In this document: in pieces, positions 37,650-63,480 of the stretch
Layout of the letters: each line of letters starts with the position of its first letter
Numbering within the stretch: the first letter of the stretch is position 1
Assembly (NCBI GenBank): GCA_016712865.1
Contig: JADJQH010000002.1
Coordinates: 124,001 to 188,000, forward strand
DNA from: Dokdonella sp.
GTDB lineage: Bacteria > Pseudomonadota > Gammaproteobacteria > Xanthomonadales > Rhodanobacteraceae
Direction of reading: 5' to 3'
Length of the DNA: 64,000 nt
The notes under the pieces: generated by a model
Told to the model about the DNA's origin: nothing
The model's input: only the letters and a program-made list of their open reading frames with translations
The model's database searches: none
Position numbers and translations under genes: made by a program

Positions 37650-37742
37650 GGAGAGATGTCCGAGTGGTTGAAGGAGCACGCCTGGAAAGTGTGTAAGCGG
37701 CTTAACCCCGCTTCGCGGGTTCGAATCCCGCTCTCTCCGCCA
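37650..37742 (+). tRNA. tRNA-Ser(GGA)
   Basis: 93-base class II tRNA with CCA encoded. Acceptor GGAGAGA (37650-37656) pairs with TCTCTCC (37732-37738), discriminator G, CCA at 37740-37742. The anticodon arm CACGC-CTGGAAA-GTGTG has anticodon GGA. Long variable arm, and T arm GCGGG-TTCGAAT-CCCGC. It would read UCC and UCU. It shares its acceptor sequence with tRNA-Ser(GCT) at 50705-50797. Confidence 0.97.
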
Positions 37743-37818: not shown

Positions 37819-37885
37819 GAAAATAGGTACGATGGGTTCGACGCATCGGCAGGACAGCCGATGCGAGCAGCGCAAGCTGCCCTGG

Positions 37886-38025
37886 TAGGTTGTTGAAATA
37901 CGTTGGCGAGGCAGCCAGTGCAAGGCAAAAGCAGGCGAAAAAGCGCAGTTTACACAGAGTAAATGAGCATTTTGAGCCTGCTTTTAACGCTGCAATGGCA
38001 ACGCAGGTAGTATTTCAACAGCCTA
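37886..38025. mobile_element. MITE-like element, about 140 bp
   Basis: The ends are inverted: TAGGTTGTTGAAATAC at 37886 and, on the other strand, TAGGCTGTTGAAATAC at 38025. The interior also pairs imperfectly (AAAGCAGGC near 37928 with GCCTGCTTTT near 37976; GTTTACACAGAGTAAATGAG at the centre). No reading frame. I recall closely similar elements (..GTTGAAA..CAGTTTACACGGAGTAAATGAGC..TTTCAAC..) scattered through xanthomonad and pseudomonad genomes; that recollection should be checked. No target duplication is evident. Confidence 0.65.
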
Positions 38026-38058
38026 GCAAGGGCGAGGCACAGGAAGTGCCGAGTACAT

Positions 38059-38119: not shown

Positions 38120-38229
38120 GGCGGCTCCGTTGGTGCCTTCGCGACGATAGCTTGTGAACTCCGCCAGGTCCGGAAGGAAGCAACGGCAGCAAGTGACTCG
38201 GGTGCCGGAGTGTCGCTGGCGGAGCTGCC
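38120..38229 (+). ncRNA. ffs: Signal recognition particle 4.5S RNA
   Basis: About 110 bases. The conserved SRP core GGTCCGGAAGGAAGCAAC lies at 38167-38184, with the symmetric partner GGGTGCCGG further on. The outer ends pair: GGCGGCTCC (38120-38128) with GGAGCTGCC (38221-38229), one G-U. The sequence can be aligned by eye to E. coli 4.5S over its length (GGCTCCGTTGGT / GGCTCTGTTGGT). A CTCTTTTC follows the stem and may terminate. It binds Ffh and targets membrane proteins. Confidence 0.95.
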
Positions 38230-49858: not shown

Positions 49859-49885
49859 CCCGAAGCAACCGGATTGCACGTCCTC

Positions 49886-50683
49886 CCTCTCTCTCCGCCA
49901 GATACGAAAAAGGCCTCGACTGAATTCCAGACCAACATCGCGAGGGATATGCTCGGCTCATCCCTGAGCCTCACCCTCGCGCCAAGCGCCCAGGCTCCTT
50001 GGGCTGTCCAAATTCGTTCCCGACGAATTTGTCACTGCGAAGGCAGGATGCCGAAGCGAACATCGCCATCGGCGATGGCCCGAAGGGTGAGGGCCGGGAA
50101 TGGCCCGAATCAACCCGGAGGTTTCGTCCACACCTCTCTCTCCGCCAGATACGAAAAAGGCCCTGACGGAGCTCCAACCCAACATCGAGAGGGATATGCT
50201 CGGCTCATCCCTGAGCCTCACCCTCGCGAGCAGCGCTCGGGCCAGCCGTTCGGCTGTCCAAATTCGTTCCCGACGAATTTGTCGACCCCGGAGGTTTCAT
50301 CCACACCTCTCTCTCCGCCAGATACGACAAAGGCCCTGACAGAGATCCAACCCAACATCGAGAGGGATATGCTCGGCTCATCCCTGAGCCTCACCCTCGC
50401 GAGCAGCGCTCGGGCCAGCCGTTCGGCTGTCCAAATTCGTTCCCGACGAATTTGTCGACCCCGGAGGTTTCGTCCACACCTCTCTCTCCGCCAGATACGA
50501 AAAAGGCCCTGACCGAGCTCCAACCCAACATCGAGAGGGATATGTTCGGCTCGTCCCTGAGCCTCACCCTCGCGCCAAGCGCTCGGGCCAGCCATTCGGC
50601 TGTCCAAATTCGTTCCTGACGAATTTGTCGAACCCGGAGGTTTCGTCCGCACCTCTCTCTCCGCCAGATACGACAAAGGCCCC
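49886..50683 (+). repeat. Tandem array of 173-bp repeats carrying the tRNA-Ser 3' end
   Basis: Five copies of CCTCTCTCTCCGCCAGATAC begin at 49886, 50133, 50306, 50479 and 50652; the last three intervals are exactly 173 bases, the first is 247 because of a 74-base insert (about 50034-50110). Each copy starts with the tRNA-Ser 3' end with CCA and about 15 bases of its trailer. The rest of the unit holds small hairpins (AAATTCGT-TCCCG-ACGAATTT; GCTCA-TCCC-TGAGC; CAGCC-GTTC-GGCTG). 173 is not a multiple of 3, and the open frames seen here change phase between copies, so it is not a coding repeat. The copies run on the plus strand, head-on to the tRNA gene. Confidence 0.93.
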
Positions 50684-50719
50684 GATTGGGGCCTTTGTCG
50701 TATCTGGCGGAGAGAGAGG
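50652..50719. repeat. 32-bp perfect palindrome over the tRNA-Ser(GCT) 3' end
   Basis: The arms 50652-50683 and 50688-50719 are exact inverted copies with the loop GATT. The right arm contains the last 15 bases of the tRNA including CCA. The inner part (GGCCCC/GGGGCC then TTTGTCGT on the minus strand) could act as the tRNA terminator. The trailer RNA could pair with the tRNA's own acceptor 3' strand. Confidence 0.9.
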
Positions 50720-50797
50720 GATTCGAACCCTCGATAGAGCTTTTGACCCTATACTCCCTTAGCAGGGGAGCGCCTTCGACCACTCGGCCATCTCTCC
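50705..50797 (-). tRNA. tRNA-Ser(GCT)
   Basis: 93 bases with CCA encoded (50707-50705). Acceptor GGAGAGA (50797-50791) pairs with TCTCTCC (50715-50709), discriminator G at 50708. Anticodon arm CTCCC-CTGCTAA-GGGAG with anticodon GCT, reading AGC and AGU. Long variable arm; T arm GAGGG-TTCGAAT-CCCTC. Located between csrA and the tandem repeats. Confidence 0.97.
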
Positions 50798-50885: not shown

Positions 50886-51092
50886 TCAGGAATCCGCGGC
50901 GCCGCCCGCGTCCTCGGACCCTGGGCCCTGCTCGCGCTTGATGCGTTGATAGATTTCTTCTCGATGTACCGAGACGTCTTTCGGGGCATTGATTCCGATG
51001 CGAACCTGATTGCCCTTCACGCCCAGAACGGTGACCGTCACTTCGTCGCCTATCATCAGGGTTTCCCCGACACGGCGGGTCAAAATCAACAT
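50886..51092 (-). CDS. csrA: Carbon storage regulator CsrA (RsmA)
   Basis: 68-residue RNA-binding post-transcriptional regulator. Start [20 protein letters not shown] with AAGGAG eight bases upstream; RNA-contact residues L4, R6-R7 and R44 ([10 protein letters not shown]) are kept. The C-terminus is Gly/Ala/Glu-rich. It lies downstream of alaS and upstream of tRNA-Ser, the usual gammaproteobacterial neighbourhood. Confidence 0.97.
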
Positions 51093-63114: not shown

Positions 63115-63180
63115 TCCAGTCCTCAATCACGCAAACGTTTCTCGTTGTGACGCGGAAGTTGTTCCGCATGCTGAGCTGGG

Positions 63181-63480
63181 CTTGCTCGGCTGCGGTGGTG
63201 AATGTCGCGAGAAAGCGGAGCAAGCTCCGCTCTACCAGGGCGACGTGGCTCTTGTAGAGCCGAGCTTGCTCGGCTGCGGTGGTGAATGTCGCGAGAAAGC
63301 GGAGCAAGCTCCGCTCTACCAGGGCGACGTGGCTCTTGTAGAGCCGAGCTTGCTCGGCTGCGGTGGTGAATGTCGCGAGAAAGCGGAGCAAGCTCCGCTC
63401 TACCAGGGCGACGTGGCTCTTGTAGAGCCGAGCTTGCTCGGCTGCGGTGGTGAATGTCGCGAGAAAGCGGGGCAAGCTCC
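63181..63480. repeat. Array of four 84-bp GTAG-type REP repeats
   Basis: Copies start with CTTGCTCGGCTGCGGTGGTG at 63181, 63265, 63349 and 63433, exactly 84 bases apart and nearly identical. Each contains GTAGAGC..CTCGGCT and AGCGGAGCAAGCTCCGCTCTAC, inverted GTAG-ended hairpins like the SMAG REP elements of Stenotrophomonas and relatives. 84 is a multiple of 3, so long open frames run through on both strands, but they are not supported as genes. No RAYT transposase is in the window. The 411 bases 63115-63525 hold no gene. Confidence 0.85.

Follow-up and report, generated by a model that had tools for sequence, protein, structure and literature searches.

The stretch of Dokdonella sp. DNA analyzed here (64,000 nucleotides, hereafter the window) carries, downstream of its tRNA-Ser(GCT) gene, four tandem copies of a conserved element of about 72–85 nt that comprises four hairpins and interrupts a copied tRNA T-loop. 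This element is very probably a homologous member of the type represented by the tRNA-linked repeats (TLRs) of E. coli, and the homology of its core to the E. coli elements RrA, RrB and RrF is firmly indicated by sequence comparison. The array is best explained as a TLR-type set that would give RrB-like, CsrA/RsmA-binding RNA by read-through from the tRNA gene, an explanation held with fair confidence. The kind of element is already known; what appears to be new is a tRNA-Ser-linked, TLR-type variant placed outside the strict hallmark of these repeats.

Organization of the array

The original prediction had described a tandem array of the tRNA-Ser(GCT) 3′ end, and this was confirmed by a repeat search and by Tandem Repeats Finder. 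Five plus-strand copies of the tRNA 3′ end with its trailer were found downstream of the gene, their complementarity to the corresponding part of the gene being 97–100% and their starts lying 247, 173, 173 and 173 nt apart (Table 1). Tandem Repeats Finder assigned to the array a period of 173, 3.3 copies, 95% matches and a score of 1033, far beyond what is expected by chance, which ruled out chance repeats. The lack of a consistent reading frame, likewise noted beforehand, also stood: since 173 is not divisible by 3, no frame is common to all units, a coding repeat was ruled out, and the open frames of 212 and 152 aa running across units were judged mechanical.

The units are not plain duplications of the tRNA 3′ end. 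Read in the tRNA sense, a unit consists of an inverted tRNA-end arm (TGGCGGAGAGAGAGG...), the 5′ strand of the T-arm in direct sense, the hairpin core, and the 3′ strand of the T-arm, again direct, the core interrupting the copied T-loop at TTCG^AATCC. The inversion of the units relative to the tRNA, as first described, thus holds for the 31-base arms and fails for the T-arm pieces, which are in direct sense in the first three units and altered in the fourth. The direct 3′ piece, ATCCCTCTC, is identical to the tRNA over 9 nt and diverges beyond them, and in the altered pieces of the fourth unit this direct identity is shorter than 9 nt. The length of the fourth unit (247 instead of 173) is due to an extra inverted half-element inside it. 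Long modules of this sort recur in relatives, for example at loci L084, L093, L115 and L131.

The first element begins 77 nt past the 3′ end of tRNA-Ser(GCT), on the same strand. The tRNA 3′ end and trailer form with the first inverted arm a perfect inverted repeat of 32 bp, inferred to be possibly a first, leaky terminator. Along with csrA, alaS precedes the tRNA gene on its strand.

Table 1. Features of the window at and around the tRNA-linked elements
Feature	Position	Strand	Evidence
tRNA-Ser(GCT)	50705..50797	-	ARAGORN; Rfam tRNA 61.8 bits
csrA (rsmA), 68 aa, directly upstream of tRNA-Ser(GCT), same strand	50886..51092	-	Pfam CsrA PF02599 93.2 bits, cut-off 27
Perfect 32-bp inverted repeat: tRNA 3′ end, trailer, terminator-like loop, reverse complement (first inverted arm, plus strand 50652-50683)	50652..50719	-	Repeat search: 32 nt, 100% complementary, 4-nt loop
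Inverted tRNA-3′-end arm, copy 2	50479..50509	+	Repeat search; sequence
Inverted tRNA-3′-end arm, copy 3	50306..50336	+	Repeat search; sequence
Inverted tRNA-3′-end arm, copy 4	50133..50163	+	Repeat search; sequence
Inverted tRNA-3′-end arm, copy 5	49884..49915	+	Repeat search; sequence
T-arm 5′ strand GGGTTCG, tRNA sense, left flank of insertion	50629..50635	-	Sequence
T-arm 5′ strand GGGGTCG, units 2 and 3	50456-50462 and 50283-50289	-	Sequence
T-arm 3′ strand ATCCCTCTC, tRNA sense, right flank of insertion	50533..50541, also 50360-50368, 50187-50195	-	Sequence
Element copy 1, four hairpins, GGA in loops of hairpins 1 and 4	50544..50628	-	R2 75.3 bits; MFE z -4.57
Element copy 2	50371..50455	-	R2 79.0 bits
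Element copy 3	50198..50282	-	R2 79.0 bits; MFE z -3.33
Element copy 4, hairpins 2-3 degenerate	49951..50032	-	R2 66.9 bits; MFE z -1.63; 15/200 shuffles fold as well
Inverted half-element (hairpins 2-4) in long unit	50023..50110	+	R2 26.0 bits, E 8e-4
Second, degenerate element in T-arm copy, between tRNA-Ser(GGA) (37650-37742) and SRP RNA (38128-38224)	37841..38056	+	By eye; flanks GGGTTCG ... ATCCCGCTCTCTCTCCGCCA

Structure and conservation of the element

Two covariance models were used, R1, built from 27 cores with their tRNA flanks, and R2, built from 41 elements without flanks and holding no E. coli sequence. From 108 model matches, 100 were used further; the eight omitted were partial or weak, five of them being low-scoring, seemingly inverted half-elements. 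Conservation was measured on 41 elements hand-picked for diversity, nearly all out of a set of 133 (alignment A4), and on a mainly tRNA-linked alignment of 87 rows, 82 of them unique and 74 counted as full (A2).

In A4, the four-helix structure pairs 92.9% of cells, helix 2 being the weakest with 76.5% paired, and double changes occur at 17 of 23 pairs (157 cells). The covariation score was 0.488 versus 0.165 in shuffled alignments, none of 500 shuffles reaching the observed value, and slid controls scored at most 0.100; these shuffles keep the relatedness among the sequences, and the structure tested was derived from the same sequences. The stems thus covary, and the structured RNA family that had been proposed is upheld. 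In the tRNA sense, G-U was found in 24 cells versus 8 for A-C (10 versus 2 at one A4 pair), cells which are not independent of each other, and this excess argues that the tRNA strand is favored as RNA. Folding energies do not separate the strands, as copy 3 gave z –3.33 on the minus strand and –3.55 on the plus strand; on the tRNA strand, where copies 1, 3 and 4 of the window were folded, copy 4 was unremarkable (Table 1).

The optimal target of CsrA/RsmE is an ANGGAN hexaloop closed by a C-G pair. The loop of hairpin 4 reads C[A(N)GGA(N)]G in all 41 rows of A4, hairpin 1 has GGA in its loop in 40 of the 41, and the linker carries GGA in 30, GGA making up 5% of the 3-mers in these elements. 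Among the 74 full rows of A2, GGA is present in loop 1 of 68, loop 4 of 67 and the linker of 65, while the stem strings differ (29 and 25 distinct ones, per script reading); the GGA counts run somewhat high, since R1 and the search pattern both go back to copies with GGA. All four window elements bear GGA in loops 1 and 4 on the minus strand, the one presumed to be transcribed. In passages of PMC8144298, GGA in a hairpin loop is given as the canonical CsrA motif.

The core was also compared with Rfam, and assignment to a known family was rejected, since none reached its cut-off for the core at the window or at the other loci compared. The window and 17 other loci returned only tRNA, SRP and, once, sX4, and 16 further loci returned one tRNA.

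Distribution and linkage to tRNA genes

The search of relatives suggested by the original prediction did return arrays, mostly at tRNA-Ser; the association is not exclusive, as tRNA-Gln and tmRNA genes are also adjoined. The 173-bp unit matched 19 of 40 genomes, the window's own included. R1 at E 0.01 matched 171 of 299 genomes of the order, and R2 matched 25 of 30 nearest-kin genomes at E 0.01 and, across the class at E 0.001, 80 of 185 genomes. ARAGORN placed a tRNA-Ser at 25 of the best 30 R1 loci, a sample that leans to tRNA sites because R1 carries T-arm flanks. A pattern of core letters only, which allowed a linkage test without this bias, found at least 120 stretches; 80 listed loci were tallied, 55 of them assigned to Lysobacterales.

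Among these 55 listed loci, 43 had a tRNA within 700 bp (Ser cga 13, gct 11, gga 8, tga 4; Gln 6; SeC 1), and the others comprised three with a tRNA 3′-end remnant, one masked, four at an edge and four with none by script. In two cases with none by script, inspection by eye revealed a slightly altered tRNA-Ser end upstream (L097) and tRNA-Ser-like sequence continuing into GAGGGTTCG (L102); at L123 and L129, the elements lie elsewhere than at a tRNA. The remaining 25 listed loci included 17 with no tRNA, four with a same-strand tRNA, one with an opposite-strand tRNA, one remnant and two at an edge. Counted per match, 53 of the 70 listed have a tRNA no more than 700 bp away, in every case on the same strand, and 17 have none at that distance. 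At L134 and L137, the element stands between tRNA-Ser(GGA) and SRP RNA on one strand, which makes co-transcription plausible.

At seven loci (L039, L052, L065, L074, L095, L115 and L146), other DNA replaces, by eye, the tRNA-Ser body up to its 3′ end, and the array persists beyond the remnant; this can be read as the result of island integration.

In the window's own genome, cores also follow tRNA-Ser(CGA) and a tRNA-Ser(TGA)-like gene. Long poly-G runs were observed in two sister tRNA-Ser loci (L015 5085–5125 and L016 4960–5030), one of which breaks the tRNA-Ser(TGA)-like gene; they are perhaps a two-color sequencing artefact at strong hairpins. Copies resembling tRNA-Gln, with 5′ halves, are interrupted at the exact T-loop point (L361 300–860, minus strand; also L017 9400–10001), and the last such copy has an uninterrupted T-arm and an altered 5′ end. 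ARAGORN called no tRNA-Gln at this tRNA-Gln-like locus, and therefore the gene may be damaged or the assembly scrambled. Moreover, a tRNA-Tyr copy with a complete 5′ part and the element in its T-loop was found upstream of an intact tRNA-Tyr (L017 4796–4930, minus strand), a locus where an 18-nt direct tRNA end is present by eye. This interrupted copy has GAA instead of GTA at the anticodon position.

Dispersed copies

The idea that the element occurs only at tRNAs in Lysobacterales was discarded: it is true for most of the listed core-pattern copies, yet R2 finds dispersed ones. The same element is dispersed in other gammaproteobacteria and in at least one record labeled Methyloversatilis, with 1–49 matches per genome in 15 genomes, each chosen for a known copy and with both strands of one site able to count; one genome of the same genus (G005) has 33 R2 matches. 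By eye, dispersed copies occupy hairpin or repeat sites and at times apparently genes, and their flanks join cleanly with no duplication, while D-loop insertions seem to occur at L085, L312 and L313. In a mostly non-tRNA set (A3), the preceding base is G in 40 of 52 and the following base A in 39 of 52, and in A2 the element is directly preceded by TTCG in 60 of 83 cases, the ends being set by model register in both sets.

In seven loci fetched from G005 (L351–L357), elements lie in both arms of inverted cassettes of about 290 bp with GGTTACTTTTGCC / GGCAAAAGTAACC-like ends. In two Ectothiorhodospira species (L125 183–271 and L117 259–347), the element is apparently in frame and stop-free within an hsdR-like restriction-enzyme gene, gene name and frame being read by eye.

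Mobilization by IS200/IS605 or RAYT enzymes was considered and rejected. Matches to the Y1 transposase (PF01797) occurred in 18 of 25 relatives and in 9 of 10 other genomes, from which 20 and 30 loci were taken, and these 50 loci were searched with R1 over flanks of some 1.5 kb, or less near a contig end. A single weak match was obtained (L261, 24.6 bits), all others having E of at least 0.2; this match apart, the Y1 genes of these loci are thus not flanked by the element.

Relationship to known systems

The E. coli family of TLRs has 22 members according to passages of PMC8144298, which date their first description to 1978, state that their function had not been known, and cite Egan and Landy 1978 and Rudd 1999 on them. 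Their hallmark, in the definition used here, is a 3′ stretch of 18–19 bp that exactly repeats, in direct orientation, the 3′ end of the tRNA or rRNA preceding it. In the window array this identity covers 9 nt (ATCCCTCTC) in three units and is shorter in the fourth, and because of this short direct end the array is called TLR-type and not a strict TLR. Within the open-access literature, PMC8144298 was the only TLR paper noticed, and others may exist among the subscription papers outside this scope; the open-access search for T-loop insertions or literal element sequences found nothing relevant, and one for Stenotrophomonas sRNAs associated with tRNA-Ser was likewise unproductive.

R2 was run on 102.5 kb of E. 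coli DNA chosen to hold rrA, rrB, rrF and tyrT. It scored 59.0 bits at each of rrA, rrB and rrF (E 1.6e-10), 15.9, 14.0 and 10.5 bits at three of the four tyrT copies, the fourth having no reported match, and 9.3 bits at one further place, all four non-rr matches having E of at least 0.17. RrA, RrB and RrF share with the window elements the same hairpins and the GGA in the loops of hairpins 1 and 4; they likewise follow a stable-RNA gene and a terminator, and hold the copied gene 3′ end at their own 3′ side. Unlike these E. coli elements, which are 5S-linked and occur one per operon, the window array is tRNA-Ser-linked and has four tandem copies, a longer hairpin 3, a perfect inverted arm and csrA directly upstream. 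As reported in passages of PMC8144298, RrA/B/F lie between T1 and T2 of rrnA/B/D and are made by T1 read-through, and RrB binds CsrA in EMSA, with no shift in the tested range for a mutant in which three GGA were changed. In these passages homologues of RrA/B/F are reported from Enterobacterales only, the 19 TLRs of E. coli tRNA operons are predicted not to bind CsrA, and the three 5S-linked TLRs tied to CsrA are suggested to be unique within the E. coli family.

The comparison with the rtT repeats of the E. coli tyrT operon, made in the original prediction, was well founded, since layout and T-loop site are the same. At tyrT/tyrV (Rfam RF00391), as in the window, an arm (GGGGAAGGATGAGAAGCTTCG) is followed by AAGGTTCG^[hairpins]^AATCCTTCCCCCACCACCA, in tandem and after a class II tRNA. 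However, the E. coli rtT units belong to tRNA-Tyr, have a period of 178, lack GGA loops and possess a core barely recognizable to R2 (best 15.9 bits, E 0.17), and their direct tRNA end is complete, compared with only 9 nt in the window array. The homology proposed for rtT is based on layout and position, R2 scoring 10.5–15.9 bits at three of four copies. RF00391 gave 16.2 bits on the other strand of the window against a gathering score of 45, versus 132.9–137.5 bits for the E. coli RtT copies, and blastn of the 173-bp unit against E. coli returned no match. The view of the array as an independent case did not survive, as rtT shares its layout and site and rrA/rrB/rrF are clear homologues of its core.

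Other known systems show partial likeness. CsrB, RsmY and RsmZ also present repeated hairpins with GGA loops (in passages of PMC8144298), unlike which the elements are dispersed tRNA-linked units rather than one dedicated gene; the Rfam models of these RNAs gave no match over the cut-off in 20 genomes. The sX4 family (RF02223) covers tRNA-Ser plus an extended 3′ hairpin in Stenotrophomonas (L139 803–968, 102.6 bits) and stops before the element; on the window it scored 28.4 bits, below its cut-off of 70, and sX4, although listed as an sRNA, may simply be a tRNA precursor. REP elements associated with RAYT (passages of PMC3733652) are likewise small dispersed palindromic repeats, some in inverted pairs, but the element adjoins none of the RAYT/Y1 genes inspected, one weak match apart.

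Putative role and rival explanations

According to the proposed mechanism, RNA polymerase that has made tRNA-Ser(GCT) would read through the S/S′ hairpin, as for RrB from rrnB, and the four elements would be released as RNA. Their GGA-loop hairpins (hairpin 4 with C[A(N)GGA(N)]G and hairpin 1 with CNGGA) would then bind CsrA/RsmA dimers, each of the four units offering two loop GGA and one linker GGA. The supply of decoys would follow stable-RNA transcription, i.e. growth rate, where no decoy of the CsrB/RsmY/RsmZ type was found. Transcription of the array is considered likely and binding of its RNA to CsrA is expected with moderate confidence, while a physiological relevance is rather doubtful.

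The window has no CsrB, RsmZ or RsmY match over the Rfam cut-off. In 20 genomes, the window's own included, CsrB (RF00018) was absent above its cut-off, with the control detected in E. coli; RsmZ (RF00166) was found in none of them and RsmY (RF00195) in none over the cut-off, with weak sub-threshold matches in 6 of the 20, these two being weaker negatives in that no control genome reached the cut-off. Sequenced Xanthomonas have no CsrB/RsmX/Y/Z homologue and only the genus-limited RsmU, as far as stated in passages of PMC7694677. A CsrA-type N-terminal motif was found upstream, on the same strand, at 37 of 38 distinct tRNA-Ser(GCT) loci, the other having 167 upstream bases, in a check that took in all stored loci, including 40 pattern loci outside the linkage tally. 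This adjacency proves nothing, because the csrA-tRNA-Ser order is an old synteny, also present in E. coli, and was seen as well at L030, L032 and L034, fetched for their tRNA-end match only.

Several observations count against the decoy reading. The tRNA-linked TLRs of E. coli are predicted to be non-binding and the tyrT copies lack GGA loops, and the in vivo effects of rrA/B/F are modest. Copies at non-tRNA sites need another reason to exist, a decoy role being less obvious there. Moreover, 15 of 200 shuffled sequences equal copy 4 in folding, and for copy 3 the strands hardly differ.

The possibility that the element is a selfish or passively mobile hairpin of about 72 nt is unlikely, though it has several points in its favor. 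Such an element would insert at G^A sites within hairpin loops or small repeats, T-loops being good targets, and would apparently cause no target duplication; the tRNA arrays would be by-products kept since the duplicated tRNA 3′ end protects the gene, and the GGA loops would serve a mobilizing enzyme and not CsrA. The copy numbers in the 15 genomes chosen for a copy and in the same-genus genome, the non-tRNA sites, some of them apparently intragenic by eye, and the G before and A after the element in set A3 all fit mobility. However, no transposase was found, only L261 among the 50 Y1 loci giving even a weak match, and the fixed orientation beside tRNAs, kept by all 53 listed pattern matches no farther than 700 bp from one, is consistent with an RNA being under selection; in addition, the homologue RrB binds CsrA (passages of PMC8144298). 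Mobility and the decoy role may also be combined. On this tentative and rather doubtful reading, TLRs would form a single branch of a mobile hairpin element, ancient and spread across the class, whose targets were T-loops, D-loops and a 5S copy, with insertion at TCG^AA-like sites and without target duplication. The copies linked to stable RNAs would have been repeatedly co-opted as CsrA decoys, the Lysobacterales arrays at tRNA-Ser, tRNA-Gln, tRNA-Tyr and tmRNA would be the main RsmA sponge of an order in which the searches returned no CsrB/RsmY/RsmZ homologue over the cut-off, and csrA, tRNA-Ser(GCT) and the array would form a co-transcribed feedback loop.

A maturation device, in which the inverted arms would modulate the termination or 3′ processing of tRNA-Ser, or serve as antisense to its precursor, is improbable. 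The perfect 32-bp hairpin at the tRNA 3′ end speaks for it, as does the sX4 family with its cover of tRNA-Ser and such a hairpin in Stenotrophomonas, but the first hairpin would form in cis, the covarying four-hairpin core would be left unexplained, and the arm is shortened at E. coli tyrT, with no long arm at rrnB by eye. The antisense role suggested in the original prediction is retained only within this minor rival, through possible pairing of the arms with the tRNA 3′ end; since the core is in the tRNA sense, antisense action on the tRNA precursor is not the role best supported. Repeated island integration at the tRNA-Ser 3′ end could have left tandem ends, and in several relatives other DNA does, by eye, lie directly against the tRNA 3′ end that precedes the array; nevertheless, integration yields end copies in direct rather than inverted orientation and no conserved core that covaries, and this core is common to the 5S-linked copies, so that att-site debris is very improbable. 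An assembly artefact is hardly credible, since the window units differ among themselves and similar arrays are present in many further assemblies, single-contig ones among them, even if poly-G runs interrupt the sister loci L015 and L016 and the tRNA-Gln locus looks scrambled.

As to its meaning, the decoy reading brings together a core of the RrA/B/F type, CsrA-type loops kept under changing stems, its frequent occurrence at tRNA genes of another order, and csrA beside the tRNA-Ser(GCT) locus. This order has CsrA and no recognized general decoy RNA, to the extent covered by the Rfam searches (0/20 above cut-off) and, for Xanthomonas, by passages of PMC7694677. The relationship of the element to CsrA-binding RNAs of E. 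coli suggests that tRNA genes of the order may carry CsrA decoys. Moreover, TLRs can be defined simply as a hairpin element interrupting a copied stable-RNA loop, a definition that unites rtT, RrB and arrays of the window type and makes function and origin testable.

Other repeats in the window

Two more repeat features were observed in the window. At positions 63173–63480, an 84-bp unit with GAGC-type hairpins is repeated in tandem (3.7 copies, 98% matches); as far as seen it is unrelated to the tRNA array. The degenerate element between tRNA-Ser(GGA) and SRP RNA scored 15.6 bits with R2 (E 0.12, 3′ half only), which is not significant alone. A palindromic insert of some 135 nt, at roughly 37888–38022 (TGTTGAAATAC ... 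GTATTTCAACA), divides this element and resembles a small mobile repeat.
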